From the NCBI GenBank assembly GCA_017523995.1, contig JAFWUX010000002.1, positions 1 to 27,356 on the forward strand: DNA of 27,356 bases, read 5' to 3'. Position numbers and translations under genes: made by a program. Position 1 is the first letter of the stretch. The number at the start of each line of letters is the position of its first letter. The stretch is from Oscillospiraceae bacterium. GTDB lineage: Bacteria > Bacillota_A > Clostridia > Oscillospirales > Ruminococcaceae. A model generated the notes under the pieces. It made no database searches. It was given only the letters and a program-made list of their open reading frames with translations, and was not told the DNA's origin. Shown piece after piece: positions 12,040 to 27,356 of the stretch.

Positions 12040-13364
12040 CATTTGCCTCGCTGCCGATGATTCTGTTTGTCCTGCCGCTGTTCGTAATCCTGACGGCGAT
12101 TGTGCCGGTGCAGTGGAAAGCGGGCGTGCTGGCACTCGGCGGACTTGCCGCAGTCTGGATGACGGGCGGCTTTCCGGCGCTGATTCTGCTGCTGATTTCG
12201 GTCAGTGCAACATGGCTGATAATCCGCCTGCAGCCGAAAAAAACGCAGGCGCATCATCACCGCGCGGAGCTCTGGCTCTACACCGGCATCGGGATACAGG
12301 CGGTGCTGCTGCTGCTCGGCAGATTCATGCTCAGTGATATGGAGCTGGTGCCGCTGCTGATCTGCGCGATGCAGGGCGCGGAGTGCATGTCCGAGCATGC
12401 AAACAACCGCTTCCGGATTCCGGCGCTGTTCCCGTTTTTCTGTTATCAGTGCGATCTGACGCGGCTTCCGGCGGGACCGGTGCTGAGTTACAACACGGCG
12501 GAGCAGCTGCGGACAGAGTACAAGGTCACGCCGGAGCGGATCGGTTCCGGCGCATCGCGGTGCATCCGCGGATTGTTTCAGCTTGTCTGTCTCGGTCTGC
12601 CGATGTACACCATGCAGGAGACCATGCTGACAGGGACCGTTCTGCGTTCCGCCTCGGATGCGGTGCTTGCCGCGCTGAGCTTTTATTTCTGCCTCTATTA
12701 CGGGCTGAAGGGCACGGCGCAGATCGGGCAGGGGCTTGCGCAGATGCTTGGCTACTGCTATCCGGACAGCTTCACGAATCCGGTGCTTGCAGATTCGCTG
12801 CAGGATTTCCGCAGGCGCTTTCTGACGCCGCTCTATGACTGGACAGAGCGCGTGCTGCATCCCGCAGAGGGCACCGATGCCGCCGGATATTTTGCGCGGA
12901 TGGCACTGCTGCTCGGCGGGCTCGGCATCGTGTTCGGGCGGGGCGGCTCCGGTCTGCTCTGGGGCGTGCTGGCGGCGCTGCTCCTGACGGCGGAGTATGT
13001 CTACCGCGGCAAAAAGCATTTTACGATGCCGCTGCAGGCGCGCAGACTGTTTGTTGCAGCGGCGGTGATCTTCGGCATGGGTCTGCTGCGCAGCCGCAGC
13101 ATCAACGAATGCTTTTCGTTTTATGCGGCGCTGCTCGGCGTCAACGGCATCATGCTGAGTGACACCTCTGCGTATCTGATGCGTGAGAACTGGCTGCTGC
13201 TGATTCTCTGCGCCGTCGGGGTCTTTCCGGTCCGCAGGATGCTGCATCTTCTGCCGAGACAGAAAACGCTCAATATCATGTATGTGGTCATCAAAGCGCT
13301 GACAGAACTGCTCATGCTGCTCTGGGCATATTCGGAATTGCTGAGCAGATATCTCAGAGCATGA
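12036..13364 (+). CDS. MBOAT-like polytopic membrane protein lacking the catalytic His
   Basis: This 442-residue protein has about ten hydrophobic segments. Its landmarks match the AlgI/DltB branch of membrane-bound O-acyltransferases. FPFF..DLTRLPAGPVLSY (from residue 132) parallels the FP...AGPI..Y entrance motif. LADSLQDFRRRFLTPLYDW (about 252-270) parallels the SI.EFWRRWHISL motif, and LLRSRSINECFSFY parallels the later FRA.S segment. At the position of the invariant catalytic His (GLWHG...WG in AlgI) it has Phe300 in GIVFGRGG..LLWG, and the second WH is FL (262-263). It is therefore probably catalytically dead or works differently. Family membership by this pattern is inference. The start overlaps the previous stop (ATGA). 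Confidence 0.6.
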   Translation: MTFASLPMILFVLPLFVILTAIVPVQWKAGVLALGGLAAVWMTGGFPALILLLISVSATWLIIRLQPKKTQAHHHRAELWLYTGIGIQAVLLLLGRFMLSDMELVPLLICAMQGAECMSEHANNRFRIPALFPFFCYQCDLTRLPAGPVLSYNTAEQLRTEYKVTPERIGSGASRCIRGLFQLVCLGLPMYTMQETMLTGTVLRSASDAVLAALSFYFCLYYGLKGTAQIGQGLAQMLGYCYPDSFTNPVLADSLQDFRRRFLTPLYDWTERVLHPAEGTDAAGYFARMALLLGGLGIVFGRGGSGLLWGVLAALLLTAEYVYRGKKHFTMPLQARRLFVAAAVIFGMGLLRSRSINECFSFYAALLGVNGIMLSDTSAYLMRENWLLLILCAVGVFPVRRMLHLLPRQKTLNIMYVVIKALTELLMLLWAYSELLSRYLRA

Positions 13365-13430
13365 AAATAGGGTGTGTAACTTTTTAGGCGGCTGGCAAAT
13401 TGCGGCTCAAACAAATCGTTTGAATGGCGC

Positions 13431-13603
13431 CCATATCAAAAGTTTTGATCAAACTTTTTTAAAAGTTTGCGGGAGTCCAGAGGCGCGGAGCCTCTGGTCG
13501 ATCTCCGCAGAGATCGAAACTCCCCCGGCGTTCAAGCGTTCGCGGGCTTGGGTGCCTGCAAGTGAGGCACCCATTCAAAATCGCATCGCGAAGCGATACC
13601 TTA
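13431..13603 (+). repeat. Structured intergenic element II (type A)
   Basis: After the module AAAAGTTTTGATC, stem A forms between CAAACTTTT (13450-13458) and AAAAGTTTG (13461-13469). An outer stem GGGAGT (13471-13476)/ACTCCC (13519-13524) encloses two hairpins: CCAGAGGC/GCCTCTGG (13477-13484/13490-13497) and CGATCTC-CGCA-GAGATCG (13499-13516). Then come GGGTGCCT/AGGCACCC (13550-13557/13565-13572) and ATCGC-GAA-GCGAT (13585-13597). The order matches element III, and the stems differ by paired changes. It fills most of the 13365-13692 gap; no gene is visible there. Confidence 0.8.
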
Positions 13604-13692
13604 TTCATTTTAATCGTTCTGAACCACCTTATTTCTAAGAGAATCCGCCTGAAATTTTATTAGCCCGAAAAGAGAAAGGAAGTTTTCCCCCA

Positions 13693-14544: not shown

Positions 14545-14610
14545 GTCCTCAGGCGGCATGCCCGGTCACCTGATATTCCGGATCGGAGCCGCGCACTGCC
14601 CGCCACTGCC

Positions 14611-14770
14611 CGCTGCGATTGATTCATGAACACAAGATGAAAACAGTAAACACAAAACAGACCTTTAGCAAATAGGAAGCGCGCACTGTGCGCTGCGATT
14701 GATTCATGAACACAAGATGGAGACAGTAAACAACAAACAGACCTTTAGCCAAATGGAGGCGGGCACTGCC
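14611..14770. repeat. Two tandem copies of an 80-base unit
   Basis: Bases 14611-14690 and 14691-14770 are direct repeats with exactly 80 bases period, differing at about 11 positions. The core TGCGATTGATTCATGAACAC is identical in both. Each copy ends in a hairpin with loop ACT: AGCGCGC/GTGCGCT (14678-14694) and GGCGGGC/GCCCGCC (14758-14774). A partial flank (ACTGCCCGC) also precedes copy 1. The array ends 14 bases before the -35 box of pyrF. No reading frame is supported. Confidence 0.85.
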
Positions 14771-21059: not shown

Positions 21060-21090
21060 CCTAACAACTGAAAGCGATCACGGCGAAGCC

Positions 21091-21186
21091 GAAATAAAAG
21101 TTTTGGTCGAGCTTTTTCACCGCGCCGTGCGCGGCTCCGTATTGCTAAAGCATTCCGGATTCGCATTACGCCGCCGGAGCGTCAAA
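21091..21186 (+). repeat. Intergenic element, type B unit
   Basis: A shared 5' module (ATAAAAGTTTTGGTCGAGC) is followed by CACCGCGCCGTGCGCGGCTC with the perfect hairpin CCGCGC-CGT-GCGCGG, then ATTGCTAAAGCATTCCGG. The same unit recurs three times, in a 111-base form, at the right end of the window. Here it is 93 bases from module to module and is followed directly by a type A unit. Confidence 0.8.
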
Positions 21187-21415
21187 ATAAAAGTTTTGGT
21201 CGAGCTTTTTCAAAAGCTCGCGGAGTCCAGAGGCAGCGCCTCTGGGCGCGCTCCGCAGAGCGCGAAACTCCCCAGCGTCAAGAGCTCCGCAGGGGTGAAT
21301 CCGAAAAACGATCCGGTGGATCGTTTTTCGGAGAGGGGCGCCCTGCGATAGAGGGCGCCCCTAAGTGAATTGCAGAGCAATTCACATGGGAATGCAACTT
21401 TCGCATTGATAACCC
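21187..21415 (+). repeat. Structured intergenic element III (type A)
   Basis: Stem A is CGAGCTTTT (21201-21209)/AAAAGCTCG (21212-21220). The outer stem GGAGT (21222-21226)/ACTCC (21267-21271) holds CCAGAGGC-AGC-GCCTCTGG (21227-21245) and CGCGCTC-CGCA-GAGCGCG (21247-21264). Three more perfect hairpins follow: 21302-21330 (13 bp, loop GGT), 21335-21361 (10 bp) and GTGAATTGC-AGA-GCAATTCAC (21365-21385). The order matches element II with compensating changes. Nothing recognisable lies between 21480 and 21565. Confidence 0.8.
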
Positions 21416-21433
21416 ATACCCCATAACCCACAG

Positions 21434-21471
21434 ACTGCACGGCTGCTGACAGAGCGGCTGTGCAGTTTTTT
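21434..21471 (+). terminator. Intrinsic terminator after the trmL-degV region
   Basis: ACTGCACGGCTGCT (21434-21447) pairs with AGCGGCTGTGCAGT (21453-21466) with two G-T wobbles and a 5-base loop, followed by a run of Ts to 21471. It lies beyond the repeat block, about 375 bases after degV. Confidence 0.85.
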
Positions 21472-21569
21472 GTGAGAGAAATCGGGCAGATGAAAAGCGC
21501 GCCGTCCGGAATGGGGAAAAGCGCCAATTTTATGTGCATAGCATCTCTGTAAATTTCTGCATAAAGCAC

Positions 21570-21598
21570 TTGCGTTTTTTACGAAAATAGAGTATAAT
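21570..21598 (+). promoter_or_regulatory. oadG promoter
   Basis: TTGCGT (21570-21575) and TATAAT (21593-21598) are separated by 17 bases. Transcription would start about 27 bases before the oadG ATG. Confidence 0.75.
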
Positions 21599-21631
21599 AA
21601 ATATGTATGTAATCAAAAGGGAGGTCTTTCC

Positions 21632-22099
21632 ATGTTATCGTTCCCCGTCATGCTTGCGGATAAGGTTCTGCACGGCACCGAGAAGCTCAACGGCACCCAG
21701 ATTGTCTCCATGACACTGATCGGTCTGCTTGTTGTGTTCTGTGCACTGCTGATCCTTGTAGCATTCCTCTATTTCTCCGGCGGTATCTTCAAAAAGACAT
21801 CCGGCGGAAGTCAGAAGGCTGCTCCGAAGAAGGATGCGCCAAAACCCGCACCGGCTGCAAAGGCTCCGGCACCCGCCGCAAAGGCTGCCGTGCCGAAAAA
21901 AACAGCACCGCCCGCAGCATCTGCCTCCGGTGAGGATGATGAGGAGGTCATTGCGGTCATCATGGCGGCGATCTCGGCAATGGGCGCTGCGGAGGGCAGG
22001 CAGTATCAGCTTCGCTCAGTCCGTCAGGTCACGCGCGGCGGCTCCGGCAGATCGGTCTGGGCACAGGCTGGCATTCTTGATGCGACTCGCCCCTTTTAA
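21632..22099 (+). CDS. oadG: Sodium-pump decarboxylase gamma subunit (OadG family)
   Basis: OadG is the small membrane subunit that holds the Na+-translocating decarboxylase complex together. The 155-residue protein has one membrane helix (about 27-50, SMTLIGLLVVFCALLILVAF). An Ala/Pro/Lys-rich flexible linker (about 62-98) follows, then a conserved C-terminal segment: EDDEEVIAVIMAAISAMGA and a final WAQAGILDATRPF. That ending is typical of the family's contact region for the other subunits. GGGAGG lies 8 bases before the ATG. The gene is 50 bases from oadB. It lacks a biotinyl domain, so the biotin carrier must be elsewhere. Confidence 0.88.
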   Translation: MLSFPVMLADKVLHGTEKLNGTQIVSMTLIGLLVVFCALLILVAFLYFSGGIFKKTSGGSQKAAPKKDAPKPAPAAKAPAPAAKAAVPKKTAPPAASASGEDDEEVIAVIMAAISAMGAAEGRQYQLRSVRQVTRGGSGRSVWAQAGILDATRPF

Positions 22100-22149
22100 C
22101 ATCTGATTGAATCAGCAATAGATAAAAATAACTTTGGAGGACTTAAACA

Positions 22150-23361
22150 ATGGGCGGTGTATTAGATTTCTTTACCAACACCCTCGGCGGTCTTTGGTCA
22201 GACAGCGGCCTGCATGCGCTGTTTGCCGAGGGCGGCTGGAAGAATCTGATTATGATTCTGGTTTCGTTTGTATTTATGTATCTGGCAATTGCAAAGGGCT
22301 TTGAGCCGCTGCTGCTGCTGCCGATTTCCTTCGGCATGCTGCTGACCAACCTTCCGATGGCAGGGCTCTATCACCCCGATCTCTGGGTGCTCGTGGACGG
22401 GCATGTCAATTACGGCGAGGTATTGAAAGAAGGCGGCCTGCTTGATATATTGTATCTGGGCGTAAAATTGCAGATCTATCCGCCGCTGATCTTCCTCGGC
22501 ATCGGCTGTATGACCGACTTCTCCCCGCTGATCGCAAACCCCAAGAGCTTCCTGCTCGGTGCTGCTGCGCAGGGCGGCATCTTCTTCACCTTCGTTGTTG
22601 CAGGTCTGCTGGGCTTCACGGCTGCGGAGGCAGGCTCCATCGCCATCATCGGCGGTGCGGACGGCCCGACTGCAATCTATGTTTCCACCAGACTGCTGAC
22701 CGGCGGCGGCGCCATTACGACGGGTAATATCGCGCTGGCTGCATATACTTATATGGCACTTGTCCCGATCATCCAGCCGCCGATCATGAAGGCGCTGACT
22801 TCCAAGAAGGAGCGCGCGGTCAAGATGGAGCAGCTCCGCACGGTCTCCAAGACCGAGAAGATCATCTTCCCGATTGCCGTTACGATTATTGTTTCGCTGC
22901 TGGTTCCTTCCGCAGCACCGCTCGTCGGCATGCTGATGTTCGGCAACCTGCTCAAGGAATCCGGCGTTGCAGCAAGACTCATCGACACCGCACAGAACGC
23001 ACTGATGAACATCATCACGATTTTCCTCGGCGTCTCCGTCGGTGCAACGACAAAGGCAGATCAGATCATCAATATCAAGTTCGGCGGCGTCATGCTGCTC
23101 GGTGTTATCGCATTCTCGCTCGGCACGGCATGCGGTCTGATCTTTGGTAAGATCATGTACAAGGTGACAGGCGGCAAGGTCAATCCGCTGATCGGTTCGG
23201 CAGGTGTTTCCGCTGTTCCGATGGCTGCACGTATCTCGCAGAAGGTCGGTGCGGAAACCGATCCGACAAACTTCCTGCTGATGCATGCAATGGGACCGAA
23301 TGTTGCCGGCGTAATCGGCTCGGCAGTTGCAGCAGGTGTTCTGCTCTCTGTCATCGGCTGA
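22150..23361 (+). CDS. oadB: Sodium-pump decarboxylase beta subunit (OadB family)
   Basis: OadB is the polytopic membrane subunit that decarboxylates carboxybiotin and pumps Na+ out of the cell. The 403-residue length and about nine to eleven hydrophobic segments fit. Conserved sites are the carboxylate in FLGIGCMTDFSPLIANP (the family's essential Asp of the Na+ path), the AIIGGADGPTAIY loop, and a C-terminal half with FGNLLKESGVAARL and an MHAMGPNVAGVIGSA ending. The ribosome site TGGAGG precedes the ATG. No alpha (carboxyltransferase) or biotin carrier gene is present nearby, so whether the complex works on oxaloacetate, methylmalonyl-CoA or glutaconyl-CoA cannot be told. Confidence 0.93.
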   Translation: MGGVLDFFTNTLGGLWSDSGLHALFAEGGWKNLIMILVSFVFMYLAIAKGFEPLLLLPISFGMLLTNLPMAGLYHPDLWVLVDGHVNYGEVLKEGGLLDILYLGVKLQIYPPLIFLGIGCMTDFSPLIANPKSFLLGAAAQGGIFFTFVVAGLLGFTAAEAGSIAIIGGADGPTAIYVSTRLLTGGGAITTGNIALAAYTYMALVPIIQPPIMKALTSKKERAVKMEQLRTVSKTEKIIFPIAVTIIVSLLVPSAAPLVGMLMFGNLLKESGVAARLIDTAQNALMNIITIFLGVSVGATTKADQIINIKFGGVMLLGVIAFSLGTACGLIFGKIMYKVTGGKVNPLIGSAGVSAVPMAARISQKVGAETDPTNFLLMHAMGPNVAGVIGSAVAAGVLLSVIG

Positions 23362-23387
23362 GGTCGGCAGTGCCGACAGCCGTTTTT
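23356..23387 (+). terminator. Terminator of oadG-oadB overlapping the oadB stop
   Basis: GTCGGC-AGT-GCCGAC (23363-23377) is extended by GGCT (23356-23359)/AGCC (23378-23381) across a 3-base bulge, and TTTTT follows at 23383-23387. The left arm includes the oadB stop codon. Confidence 0.85.
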
Positions 23388-23455
23388 GCTTCGCCTTTCT
23401 TTTGCTCCGTCTGCAAAATAAGGGAAGTTCCCTGTTAAATTTCATATCGTTTTTC

Positions 23456-23512
23456 AGGCGGCAGAGTGTCTCCGGATTCCGATTCTCGGAGCACGGAGGG
23501 GCTTTGCCGCCT
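23456..23512 (+). promoter_or_regulatory. Structured leader upstream of adhE
   Basis: AGGCGGCA (23456-23463) pairs with TGCCGCCT (23505-23512), enclosing a CTCCG/CGGAG hairpin (23470-23474/23487-23491). A short GGGA/TCCC hairpin lies just upstream (23422-23432). The outer stem ends 14 bases before AAGGAGG. No clear promoter and no convincing Rex operator were found between the oadB terminator and adhE. Confidence 0.4.
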
Positions 23513-23539
23513 CTGCTTATCACCTGAAGGAGGTTCACT

Positions 23540-26155
23540 ATGAAGGAGTATCCGATTGTTGATACGGTTGATGCACTGAAGGCGCTGCTCGCAAGAGTGC
23601 GGAAGGCGCAGGAGGAGTTTGCACAGTTCCCGCAGGAGAAGGTCGATGCGATCTTCCGTGCGGCGGCGATTGCAGCCAATCAGGCGCGGATTCCGCTTGC
23701 CAAAATGGCGGTCGAGGAGACCGGCATGGGTGTTGTCGAGGATAAGGTGATCAAAAACCACTTCGCATCCGAGTATATCTACAATGCTTACAAGGATACC
23801 AAAACCTGCGGCGTGATCGAGCGCAATGAGGCGTTCGGTACCATGCGCATCGCAGAGCCGCTCGGTGTCATTGCGGCTGTCATCCCGACAACCAACCCGA
23901 CATCGACCGCGATTTTCAAGACACTGATCACGCTCAAGACCAGAAACGGCATCATCATCTCGCCGCATCCGCGTGCAAAGGAATCGACAATCGCAGCGGC
24001 AAAGATCGTTGCCGAGGCTGCATATAAAGCGGGCGCACCGGAGGGCATCATCGGCTGGATTGACAAGCCCTCGCTCGATATGACCAATACCGTCATGAAG
24101 TATTCGGATATCATCCTTGCAACGGGCGGCCCGGGCATGGTGCATGCAGCATATTCCAGCGGCAAGCCGGCACTGGGCGTCGGCGCGGGCAATACGCCGG
24201 CGATCATTGATGACACCGCCGATATCACGCTCGCCGTCAACTCGATCATCCACTCCAAGACCTTCGATAACGGCATGATCTGCGCTTCGGAGCAGTCCAC
24301 CATCGTGCTTGATAAGATCTATGAGAAGGTCAAAAAGGAGTTTATCGCCCGCGGCTGCTATTTCCTCAAGGGCAAGGAGCTCGACAAGGTTCGCCAGACC
24401 ATTATCATCAACGGCTCGCTGAACGCAAAGATTGTCGGTCAGAAGGCGCACACGATTGCAGCCCTTGCAGGCGTTGAGGTGCCCGAGAGCACCAAGATCC
24501 TGATCGGTGAGGTTGAGAATGTTGACATCACCGAGGAATTCGCACACGAAAAGCTTTCGCCGGTGCTTGCAATGTACCATGCGAAGGATTTTGAGGAGGC
24601 AATGCAGAAGGCAGAGCGCCTCATCGCAGACGGCGGCTACGGTCACACCTCGTCTGTCTATCTCAATGCCGTGACCGAGCGCGCAAAGATCGACGAAATG
24701 GCAGAGCGCATGAAGACCTGCCGTATCCTTGTCAACACGCCTTCTTCGCACGGCGGCATCGGTGATCTCTATAACTTCAATCTGGCACCTTCCCTGACGC
24801 TGGGCTGCGGCTCGTGGGGCGGCAACTCGGTCAGCGAGAATGTCGGTGTCAAGCATCTGCTCAATATCAAAACCGTTGCGGAGAGGAGAGAGAATATGCT
24901 GTGGTTCCGTACGCCGGAAAAGGTCTATATCAAGCAGGGCTGCCTGCCTGTCGCACTTGATGAGCTGGGCTCTGTGCTCGGCAAGAAGCGCGCGTTTATC
25001 GTCACCGACAGCTTCCTGTTCAAAAACGGTTATACCAAGCCCATCACCGATAAGCTCGAGCAGCTCGGCATCGTATACAGCACCTTCTTCGAGGTTGAGC
25101 CGGATCCGACGCTCAGCTCTGCAAGAAAGGGCGCTGCGGCGATGACCGCATTCCAGCCGGATGTCATCATCGCGCTCGGCGGCGGCTCCGCGATGGATGC
25201 GGGCAAGATCATGTGGGTGCTCTATGAGCATCCGGATGCGGATTTCGCAGACATGGCAATGCGTTTCTCGGATATCCGCAAGCGTATCTACACCTTCCCG
25301 AAGATGGGCGAAAAGGCATATTTCATCGCAGTGCCGACCTCTGCCGGAACGGGCTCCGAGGTCACGCCGTTCGCAGTTATCACTGATGACAGCTGCGGCA
25401 TCAAGTATCCGCTCGCAGATTACGAGCTGATGCCGGATATGGCGATTGTCGATCCGGACATGATGAAGACCGCGCCGAAGGGTCTGACCTCGGCATCCGG
25501 CATTGACGTTGCAACCCATGCACTCGAAGCATATGCTTCCATGATGGCAACCGATTACACCGACGGTCTTGCAATCCGTTCGCTGAAGCTCGTCTTTGAG
25601 AATCTGCCGCGCACCTATCAGAACGGTGCAGAGGATATCGAAGCATGGGGCAACATGGCAAATGCGGCGACAATGGCAGGTATGGCGTTTGCAAACGCAT
25701 TCCTCGGCGTCTGCCACTCGATGGCACACAAGCTCGGCGCATTCCACCACATTCCGCACGGCGTCGCAAATGCGCTGATGCTCGAGCAGGTGCTCCGCTT
25801 CAATTCCGCGGAAGTGCCGCCGAAGATGGGTACCTTCCCGCAGTACAGCTATCCGCACACCCTCGCACGCTATGCTGAGGTTGCGACCGCGCTCGGCATG
25901 AAGGGCAAGACCGATCAGGATAAGCTCGAAGCACTGATCAAGGCGCTCAACGATCTGAAGCACACAATCGGTATTCCGGACAGCATCAGGGAATGGGGCA
26001 TTGATGAAAAGAAGTTCCTCGAGCAGCTCGATGCAATGAGCGAGCAGGCATTCGACGATCAGTGCACCGGCGCAAACCCGCGCTATCCGCTCATCAGCGA
26101 GATCAAGCAGATGTATCTGAATGCATATTACGGCAAGAACAGCGAAACAGTCTGA
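23540..26155 (+). CDS. adhE: Bifunctional acetaldehyde/alcohol dehydrogenase
   Basis: AdhE reduces acetyl-CoA to acetaldehyde and then to ethanol, regenerating two NAD+ per turn during fermentation. The enzyme forms long filaments (spirosomes) in the cytoplasm. The 871-residue length is normal. The N-terminal aldehyde dehydrogenase half has the catalytic Cys248 in GMICASEQS and an NTPAIIDDTADI segment. After a linker near 450, the Fe-dependent alcohol dehydrogenase half has the NAD-binding GGGSAMDAGK (547-556), PTSAGTGSE, and metal ligands in HALEAY and HSMAHKLGAFHHIPHG (from H726). All key residues of both halves are present. AAGGAGG lies 7 bases before the ATG. The kinase-like gene follows after 19 bases. 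Confidence 0.97.
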   Translation: MKEYPIVDTVDALKALLARVRKAQEEFAQFPQEKVDAIFRAAAIAANQARIPLAKMAVEETGMGVVEDKVIKNHFASEYIYNAYKDTKTCGVIERNEAFGTMRIAEPLGVIAAVIPTTNPTSTAIFKTLITLKTRNGIIISPHPRAKESTIAAAKIVAEAAYKAGAPEGIIGWIDKPSLDMTNTVMKYSDIILATGGPGMVHAAYSSGKPALGVGAGNTPAIIDDTADITLAVNSIIHSKTFDNGMICASEQSTIVLDKIYEKVKKEFIARGCYFLKGKELDKVRQTIIINGSLNAKIVGQKAHTIAALAGVEVPESTKILIGEVENVDITEEFAHEKLSPVLAMYHAKDFEEAMQKAERLIADGGYGHTSSVYLNAVTERAKIDEMAERMKTCRILVNTPSSHGGIGDLYNFNLAPSLTLGCGSWGGNSVSENVGVKHLLNIKTVAERRENMLWFRTPEKVYIKQGCLPVALDELGSVLGKKRAFIVTDSFLFKNGYTKPITDKLEQLGIVYSTFFEVEPDPTLSSARKGAAAMTAFQPDVIIALGGGSAMDAGKIMWVLYEHPDADFADMAMRFSDIRKRIYTFPKMGEKAYFIAVPTSAGTGSEVTPFAVITDDSCGIKYPLADYELMPDMAIVDPDMMKTAPKGLTSASGIDVATHALEAYASMMATDYTDGLAIRSLKLVFENLPRTYQNGAEDIEAWGNMANAATMAGMAFANAFLGVCHSMAHKLGAFHHIPHGVANALMLEQVLRFNSAEVPPKMGTFPQYSYPHTLARYAEVATALGMKGKTDQDKLEALIKALNDLKHTIGIPDSIREWGIDEKKFLEQLDAMSEQAFDDQCTGANPRYPLISEIKQMYLNAYYGKNSETV

Positions 26156-26174
26156 GAACAGGGAGGTTTTTGAT

Positions 26175-26933
26175 ATGCTTTACAAGGAAGAACAGGTCAT
26201 TGCGACACGCCCGAAAAAGGTGATCTACCGCGACGGCGATACGGTTGTCAAGCTGTTCAGCGCAGATTACTCCAAGGCGTCCGTGCTGAATGAGGCGCTG
26301 AATCAGGCGCGCGTTGAGGAAACCGACCTGAATATCCCGAAGATCATTGAGGTGTTCAAAGAGGGCGAGCAGTGGGCAATCCGCTCGGATTATATCGAGG
26401 GCAAAACGCTCCAGCAGATGATGGATGAGAATCCCGACAAAAGAGACGAATATCTTAAGCAGTTTGTCGAGCTGCAAATGCTGATTCACACCAAGCGTGC
26501 GCCGCTGCTGACCAAGCTCAAGGATAAGATGCACCGCAAGATCAGCGACAGCAAATTCGAGGCGACAGTCCGCTTTGAGCTGCATACGCGCCTTGAGGGC
26601 ATGCCGAAGCACAAGAAGGTCTGCCACGGCGACTTCAACCCCTCGAATGTGATCATCACACCGGAGGGCACACCGTTCATCATTGACTGGGCGCATGCAA
26701 CGCAGGGCAATGCATCTGCGGATGTTGCAAGAACCTATCTTTATATGATGCTGAACGGGCAGGAGCAGCTTGCAAAGGATTATCTCAAGCTGTTCTGCAA
26801 GATGAGCGACACAGCGCTGCAGTATGTGCAGAACTGGATGCCGATTGTAGCGGCATCGCAGTCGGTCAAGGAGAACAGCGACGATGATTTCGAGCTGCTC
26901 TCGCGCTGGGTGAATGTTGTAGACTATGTGTAA
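26175..26933 (+). CDS. APH-like phosphotransferase family protein
   Basis: This 252-residue protein has the protein-kinase-like fold of aminoglycoside/choline phosphotransferases. It has an N-terminal lobe with VIYRDGDTVVKLF (nucleotide-binding Lys), a hinge with AIRSDYIEGKTL, the catalytic loop HGDFNPSN (151-158, Asp153) and the metal-binding IIDW (Asp171). All the core catalytic residues are present, so activity is likely; the substrate is unknown, and nothing points specifically to antibiotic resistance. The frame is open 18 codons upstream into adhE, but ATG 26175 is chosen because GGGAGG lies 10 bases before it and MLYKEEQVIA is the natural start. It is probably co-transcribed with adhE. 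Confidence 0.85.
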   Translation: MLYKEEQVIATRPKKVIYRDGDTVVKLFSADYSKASVLNEALNQARVEETDLNIPKIIEVFKEGEQWAIRSDYIEGKTLQQMMDENPDKRDEYLKQFVELQMLIHTKRAPLLTKLKDKMHRKISDSKFEATVRFELHTRLEGMPKHKKVCHGDFNPSNVIITPEGTPFIIDWAHATQGNASADVARTYLYMMLNGQEQLAKDYLKLFCKMSDTALQYVQNWMPIVAASQSVKENSDDDFELLSRWVNVVDYV

Positions 26934-26935
26934 CT

Positions 26936-26977
26936 GACAAAAGAGCGCGCAGAGTGATTCTGCGCGCTCAGTTTGTC
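26936..26977 (+). terminator. Long perfect hairpin after the kinase gene
   Basis: GAGCGCGCAGA (26943-26953) pairs perfectly with TCTGCGCGCTC (26959-26969) around GTGAT, and GACAAA/TTTGTC (26936-26941/26972-26977) extend it. It starts 3 bases after the stop codon, so it is probably the transcript end, although no T-tract follows. Confidence 0.6.
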
Positions 26978-27051
26978 GAAAAAGTGTTAAAAAATGAGGA
27001 CTTACAGGATTGCTGCGGCTCAGTATCGGCGCACAACATATCGAAAGTTTT

Positions 27052-27356
27052 GATCAAACTTTTTCACCGCGCCGTGCGCGGCTCCGTATTGCTAAAGCAT
27101 TCCGGTCACGCACTGTGCTGCCGGAGCATAACACGCTGCGGGAGCGCCAATATAAAAGTTTTGATCAAACTTTTTCACCGCGCCGTGCGCGGCTCCGTAT
27201 TGCTAAAGCATTCCGGTCACGCACTGTGCTGCCGGAGCATAACACGCCGCGGGAGCGCCAATATAAAAGTTTTGGTCGAGCTTTTTCACCGCGCCGTGCG
27301 CGGCTCCGTATTGCTAAAGCATTCCGGTCACGCACTGTGCTGCCGGAGCATAACAC
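27052..27356 (+). repeat. Tandem array of a 111-base type B unit, running off the window
   Basis: The unit beginning AAAGTTTTGRTCRARCTTTTTCACCGCGCCG recurs with exactly 111 bases period: CACCGCGCCG starts at 27065, 27176 and 27287. Each copy carries CCGCGC-CGT-GCGCGG, TTGCTAAAGCA and a CCGG...CCGG hairpin region, with almost no differences between copies. The third copy carries the GGTCGAGC form of the 5' module where the first two carry GATCAAAC. Bases 26978-27051 show nothing recognisable. The array continues beyond the window. Confidence 0.9.

Follow-up and report, generated by a model that had tools for sequence, protein, structure and literature searches.

The two intergenic elements described here lie in a window of 27,356 nucleotides (the whole stretch of DNA that was analysed) and are copies of a dispersed intergenic hairpin repeat that is probably mobile. 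Each contains three modules, A, B and C, and we judge it likely that this A-B-C unit is the core of a mobile, non-autonomous DNA repeat in which hairpins are strung together as a mosaic of approximately 200-450 nt, found in gut and rumen Oscillospiraceae and their relatives. The family as a whole is best read as an undescribed mosaic mobile repeat, similar to MITEs and BOX elements. A first-pass annotation had reported copies at 13438-13524 and 21189-21271, with a stem A, two inner hairpins and a CGCA loop, and both are present as it stated; the reported stretch is, however, only the front (A-B-C) of a longer hairpin string. The features of the window are the following, L018 being the locus of the closest relative.

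13370-13673 (304 nt, no strand assigned): stretch missing from the orthologous site of L018, which there reads CTGAAAATAGAAAGG
13370-13666: copy 1 element, when 13370-13673 is read as element plus putative duplication
13363-13369 and 13667-13673: putative 7-nt duplication, GAAAATA and GAAAAGA with one mismatch, by eye
13370-13391, + strand: left end GGGTGTGTAACTTTTTAGGCGG, an imperfect inverted repeat of 13645-13666 (15/22 by eye)
13438-13469, + strand: copy 1 leader AAAAGTTTTGAT and stem A (arms 13450-13458 and 13461-13469)
13471-13524, + strand: copy 1 outer stem as proposed in the first-pass annotation (arms 13471-13476 and 13519-13524), unconserved among copies
13477-13497, + strand: copy 1 hairpin B, CCAGAGGC/GCCTCTGG
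13498-13517, + strand: copy 1 hairpin C, TCGATCTC-CGCA-GAGATCGA
13549-13573, + strand: copy 1 hairpin E, TGGGTGCCT/AGGCACCCA, a like module being present in other copies
13580-13597, + strand: copy 1 hairpin F, ATCGCATCGCGA/TCGCGAAGCGAT
21060-21408, + strand: copy 2 composite, about 350 nt of hairpins within the 456-nt stretch 21060-21515 (78 nt instead in L018); order: left end, T1 module, A-B-C, three further hairpins and a putative end ...CGCATTG at 21408, the ends being assigned by eye
21060-21076, + strand: putative degenerate beta-type left end of copy 2, CCTAACAACTGAAAGCG, by eye
21097-21187, + strand: T1 module (family D1), with the leader of the core and then a different hairpin
21190-21277, + strand: copy 2 core (stem A 21201-21220, hairpin B 21227-21245, hairpin C 21247-21264)
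21300-21362, + strand: copy 2 hairpins E' (21300-21332) and F' (21334-21362)
26943-26969, + strand: hairpin before the tandem T1 units
26968-26983, + strand: alpha-type end TCAGTTTGTCGAAAAA before the tandem T1 units, by eye
27044-27356, + strand: T1 array of three tandem units of 111 nt, the third truncated by the end of the window

The leader is common to the two cores and to four further pieces of the window, namely 21097-21187 and the three tandem units. Where the window has this T1 array, L018:19340-19480 shows by eye a decayed copy of the hairpin string, in reverse, after a terminator hairpin; for this copy no BLAST match was obtained at E<=1e-3.

Relatives were located via the neighbouring pyrD gene; 80 loci were kept, 15 of those genomes were searched for the repeat and, besides the returned loci, stretches were taken from six of the 15. 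A descriptor of the element fitted 115 of 140 matching stretches, leaving 25 outside, and the alignment comprises 93 distinct copies, without L003, two repeats and L203, a copy at a contig end. The four double changes noted earlier between the window copies, in stem A and in the CGCA-loop hairpin, are real, and the covariation test extends them: 99.3% of the cells of stems A and C are paired, with 211 two-sided changed cells against a shuffled mean of 57.6 (0 of 500 shuffles as high), in an alignment selected by a descriptor demanding at least five Watson-Crick pairs in stem C, a bias that persists in alignment A1 and covariance model R1. Without the Watson-Crick filter, the seven inner pairs of stem C comprise 792 Watson-Crick, 6 GT, 0 AC and 0 other cells in 114 copies, which carry 22 different 5' arms and, in 113 cases, the CGCA loop; the outermost pair is weaker, being unpaired in 5 of the 93 aligned copies. 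The corresponding counts are 809 Watson-Crick, 1 GT, 2 AC and 21 other for stem A (119 stretches, including T1 units without a 3' arm) and 734, 6, 5 and 18 for stem B (109 copies). The RNAalifold consensus of the copy alignment likewise contains stem A together with hairpins B and C. There is good support for the view that pairing is maintained in the hairpins. The outer GGAGT/ACTCC stem, which had been proposed to enclose the two inner hairpins, found no such support: it is absent from the RNAalifold prediction, and at least five Watson-Crick pairs occur in 15 of the 93 copies, a value equalled in 469 of 500 partner shuffles.

From the paired changes the first-pass annotation had argued that the fold, as RNA or as extruded DNA, is selected. 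The pairing of the hairpins stands, but covariation alone is no evidence for RNA function, because the repeat is dispersed in high copy number, its sites are polymorphic, terminal inverted repeats are present on a part of its copies and its orientation relative to genes is mixed. Strong covariation, and the fact that all six non-Watson-Crick cells of stem C are GT on the + strand and none AC, would suit a structured RNA (a 3'UTR element or a small RNA) that has spread by duplication to many loci and whose fold is under selection as RNA. We nevertheless regard this as unlikely. Stems A and B together give 7 GT against 7 AC, and the total over the three stems, 13:7, gives no clear sign of which strand is folded or whether it folds as RNA or as DNA. 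Both strands of the window copies fold about equally well: against shuffles, RNA folding of copy 1 has z scores of -5.5 (+ strand) and -6.0 (- strand) and that of copy 2 of -4.0 and -4.7; the DNA values are -7.6/-7.9 and -5.4/-6.1 (+/- strand), respectively. A promoter-like site on the + strand is present at neither copy, and there is one on the - strand at copy 2. The earlier statement that this is not a named RNA holds, since Rfam 15 gave 0 matches at gathering score in the 27,356 bases of the window and, for copy 1, 0 matches at E<=5; matches to SNORA77, rox1, mir-5360 and Listeria sbrA near copy 2 all fell under their gathering scores and were rejected. Besides, 85 copies classified with a crude longest-ORF caller comprise 30 with both neighbouring genes forward, 19 with both reverse, 18 between divergent and 14 between convergent genes, and 4 undetermined. 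An RNA that acts in cis and keeps to one side of genes does not fit this mixed orientation.

The preferred reading, a mobile DNA repeat, draws on the architecture, the spread and the sites of the copies. Downstream of the A-B-C core there are often more hairpins, with loops that are fixed and stems that vary but remain paired, either of type E (loop TGCGATAGA) and type F (loop GCATCCGCGAAGCGGAT) or, alternatively, of a second hairpin series; the E-type loop word occurs within 200 nt downstream in 110 of 211 copies and the F-type word in 40 of 211. In the long contigs of genome G160 the cores stand in facing inverted pairs, 12 in the fetched stretches, approximately 207-387 nt apart. The modules reassort in some genomes. 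Thus, the 26 copies of G001 display 20 distinct A-B-C combinations, with A and B associated (p 0.001) and A-C and B-C unassociated (p 0.22 and 0.45), and the 23 copies of G007 display 19 combinations, only A-C being associated, and weakly (p 0.04). In G004, on the other hand, all three modules show association with one another (p 0.001 or less), the pattern to be expected if there were few master copies.

The repeat was found in 13 of the 15 related genomes, with at least about 40 copies in several of them. Covariance model R1 matched 38 of the 148 family genomes and 11 of the 196 class genomes searched, two of them (G001 and G078) belonging to both samples, and its per-genome copy counts are lower bounds; most genomes are draft assemblies, which lose repeats. 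As in MITEs, the copies are non-coding, short, numerous and dispersed, and 21 of 85 overlap some ORF of at least 100 amino acids in a crude scan. A plasmid search for the element gave no match, and a phage search gave one record, without annotation, matching 50% of the query. The scan of viral contigs returned 8 loci, among which L003 is one clear copy, as well as 9 loci with the leader, mostly in other architectures.

Evidence for movement comes in the first place from L018, which is 87-93% identical to the window in aligned blocks and has neither window copy. Copy 1 parts two genes that are only 24 nt apart in L018, and where the window has 21060-21515, L018 has 78 other bases. This presence/absence evidence consists of two sites in one relative, and the differences could in principle be deletions in L018.

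The same core is found between at least three types of terminal inverted repeat, named alpha, beta and gamma. Of 211 copies, 14 carry the alpha end (CAG..TGTCGANAAA) on both sides and a further 32 carry it on one side only, and beta and gamma ends are each two-sided in 3 of 211. At least one of the three motifs is present in 65 of the 211 copies, and two-sided in 20; in a reversed-flank control alpha gave 5 chance hits, and neither beta nor gamma gave any. The other 146 carry none of the three, a window copy being among those listed. The beta motif is specific to G001, with 20 matches there versus 0 for the reversed pattern and 3 versus 4 in the other seven genomes. The alpha motif exceeds its control in G004 (31 versus 4) and G012 (23 versus 4), is weak in G006 (9 versus 6) and G007 (9 versus 5) and stays at control level in G001 (5 versus 6). 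The beta end, CAATGCTNACAACTTAAG, presumably resembles the end of IS231 (IS4 family), ...CAACTTAAG. A further likeness to the IS231/IS4 family is the single case, at L218, in which a beta element lies within hairpin B belonging to another copy and is accompanied by a direct duplication of 10 nt, CGAGGGGCAG; the difference is that here no transposase was found with the beta end.

Some alpha elements of 210-225 nt are flanked on both sides by copies of a hairpin that is, by eye, terminator-like and that differs from site to site. Such hairpin duplications, of 23-34 nt, were observed in 5 of 18 candidate alpha pairs (four identical, that of L178 with one mismatch); the control gave none at score >=30, and the 18 include some pairs that arose by chance in other loci. 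A hairpin-like direct duplication flanks 9 of 211 copies versus 7 of 2099 swapped controls; five of the nine are the alpha-pair sites just described, and at L151 the duplication is far from the core. Among 29 copies looked at in G066, L341 has a similar 25-nt duplication with one mismatch. These sites raise the idea that insertion takes place at a transcription terminator, with duplication of its entire hairpin, whose length would set that of the duplication, a proposal that we regard as tentative and rather doubtful. Different hairpins stand on the two sides of the alpha pairs L179, L207 and L262, which argues against a universal duplication rule, and most copies have no visible target-site duplication. 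For the duplication site L183, the best relative (81%) lacks the element and has a single terminator-like hairpin, which is a different one; its next gene also differs, and the second-best relative has no such hairpin by eye, so that a clean empty site is not at hand. If the proposal were true, the integration enzyme would nick both feet of the hairpin, unlike the usual DDE or Y1 transposases. CRISPR repeats, which are duplicated on spacer capture, offer a comparison. Among the matches listed, no title or abstract opening in the literature outside subscription papers names a hairpin-duplicating element. As a separate observation, many terminator-like hairpins (L235-L264) have the motif CAGTTTGTCGANAAA directly after them, and this motif leads into several different repeats, e.g. 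GGTATCTCCGATGGATTGATAATGGGGC.

The terminator-like hairpins also bear on the alternative that the copies are bidirectional transcription terminators or insulators that selection has placed at gene ends and maintains there. The subset of copies lying, by eye, exactly between two such hairpins speaks for it, and so does hairpin F of copy 1, which contains a single terminator-like site on the - strand. Against it, the scan of copy 1 gave 2 sites (one of them outside the hairpins) versus 0.6 in shuffles, near the shuffle level, and that of copy 2 gave 0 versus 1.0; divergent gene positions occur, and the genes that copy 1 separates are nearly adjacent in L018. This explanation is accordingly considered highly unlikely.

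The search for a driving enzyme bears on the weakest alternative, that of REP/REPIN (BIME) elements mobilised by RAYT (TnpA-REP, a Y1 transposase). The defining feature of REP systems is a RAYT-type transposase. It is true that the present repeat is likewise palindromic, dispersed, intergenic, high in copy number and arranged in mosaic arrays, and that GGAG at the foot of hairpin B presumably resembles the REP tag tetranucleotide, but the tag is not conserved (GGAG, GGTC and GGTT are all common, many copies having GGTC or GGTTTCC) and Y1_Tnp exceeded the cut-off in only 2 (G044 and G160) of 21 tested genomes with at least 10 copies, being below it in the remaining 19; these 21 are drawn from a larger set, the family and class samples having ten or more other copy-rich genomes. 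The Y1-rich G066 and G146 (17 and 74 matches), in turn, have only 4 and 1 copies. This explanation can hardly be right. Many of the Y1_Tnp matches of G146 contain stops. DDE_Tnp_1 was detected at 13 loci in 4 of 15 genomes, and a good beta end was absent from all 13. With no link found, RAYT and DDE_Tnp_1 were both rejected as drivers. No autonomous partner or transposase with alpha or beta ends was found in these draft genomes, and no alpha-end pairs at insertion-sequence distance were seen by eye in five of them. Related to this, partial DDE_Tnp_1 genes, which we take to be IS1182-like, are situated at contig ends in G006 (L268 and L272), as expected for collapsed multi-copy elements.

Several known systems resemble the mobile repeat in part. 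BOX from Streptococcus pneumoniae is likewise a short modular repeat whose modules have a fixed order, with stem-loops and MITE-like ends, and it likewise clusters and nests with other repeats (PMC3049150). The elements described here differ in having hypervariable complementary stems, other modules, another host group and several end types per core; the comparison with boxA, boxB and boxC is one of architecture. With prokaryotic MITEs the repeat shares its short, high-copy, non-coding and intergenic nature, and it may also share with them terminal inverted repeats, on a part of the copies, and direct duplications, at some sites (PMC10969869, PMC4596501). It differs from them in that no parent insertion sequence was found, at least three end types exist and the duplications extend from 10 nt up to the 23-34 nt of an entire hairpin. 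The repeat is filed under neither BOX nor MITE because no parent element was found, its ends are of several types and undefined in most copies, and the likeness to BOX is one of architecture. The use of inverted-repeat structures as targets would be shared with IS1272, for which an inverted-repeat-replacing transposition without target duplication is reported (PMC5678879); in the present repeat, unlike in IS1272 as described there, a hairpin is duplicated around a minority of copies.

Taken as a mobile repeat, the copies would be moved in trans by transposases reading their ends, and the hairpins of other copies or of terminators may serve as landing sites, with arrays growing by nesting. The complementarity of the stems might be kept because single-strand folding is needed for mobility or, alternatively, because both arms are renewed together, by recombination between copies or by intrastrand template switching. 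Effects at the transcript level (termination, insulation) would be secondary.

The implications concern both the genomes and the methods used to study them. A large repeat family, unnamed in the sources searched, fills intergenic regions of common gut and rumen bacteria; among the matches listed in the literature outside subscription papers, no title or abstract opening names such a repeat in Ruminococcus-like bacteria. Its hypervariable and nearly perfectly paired stems are a caution that a dispersed DNA repeat can yield strong covariation. The hairpin duplications, if confirmed, would point to an unusual insertion mechanism.

Other differences between the window and its relatives were observed. 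The window has an 80-nt tandem repeat at 14604-14763, where L018:6378-7418 has approximately 1 kb of different sequence. Finally, changes of gene order relative to the window (21565-26929 moved beside ~14800) break at intergenic repeat sites (L021:5620-5850 and L023:2245-8122), and the junction in L021 holds a copy of the element.
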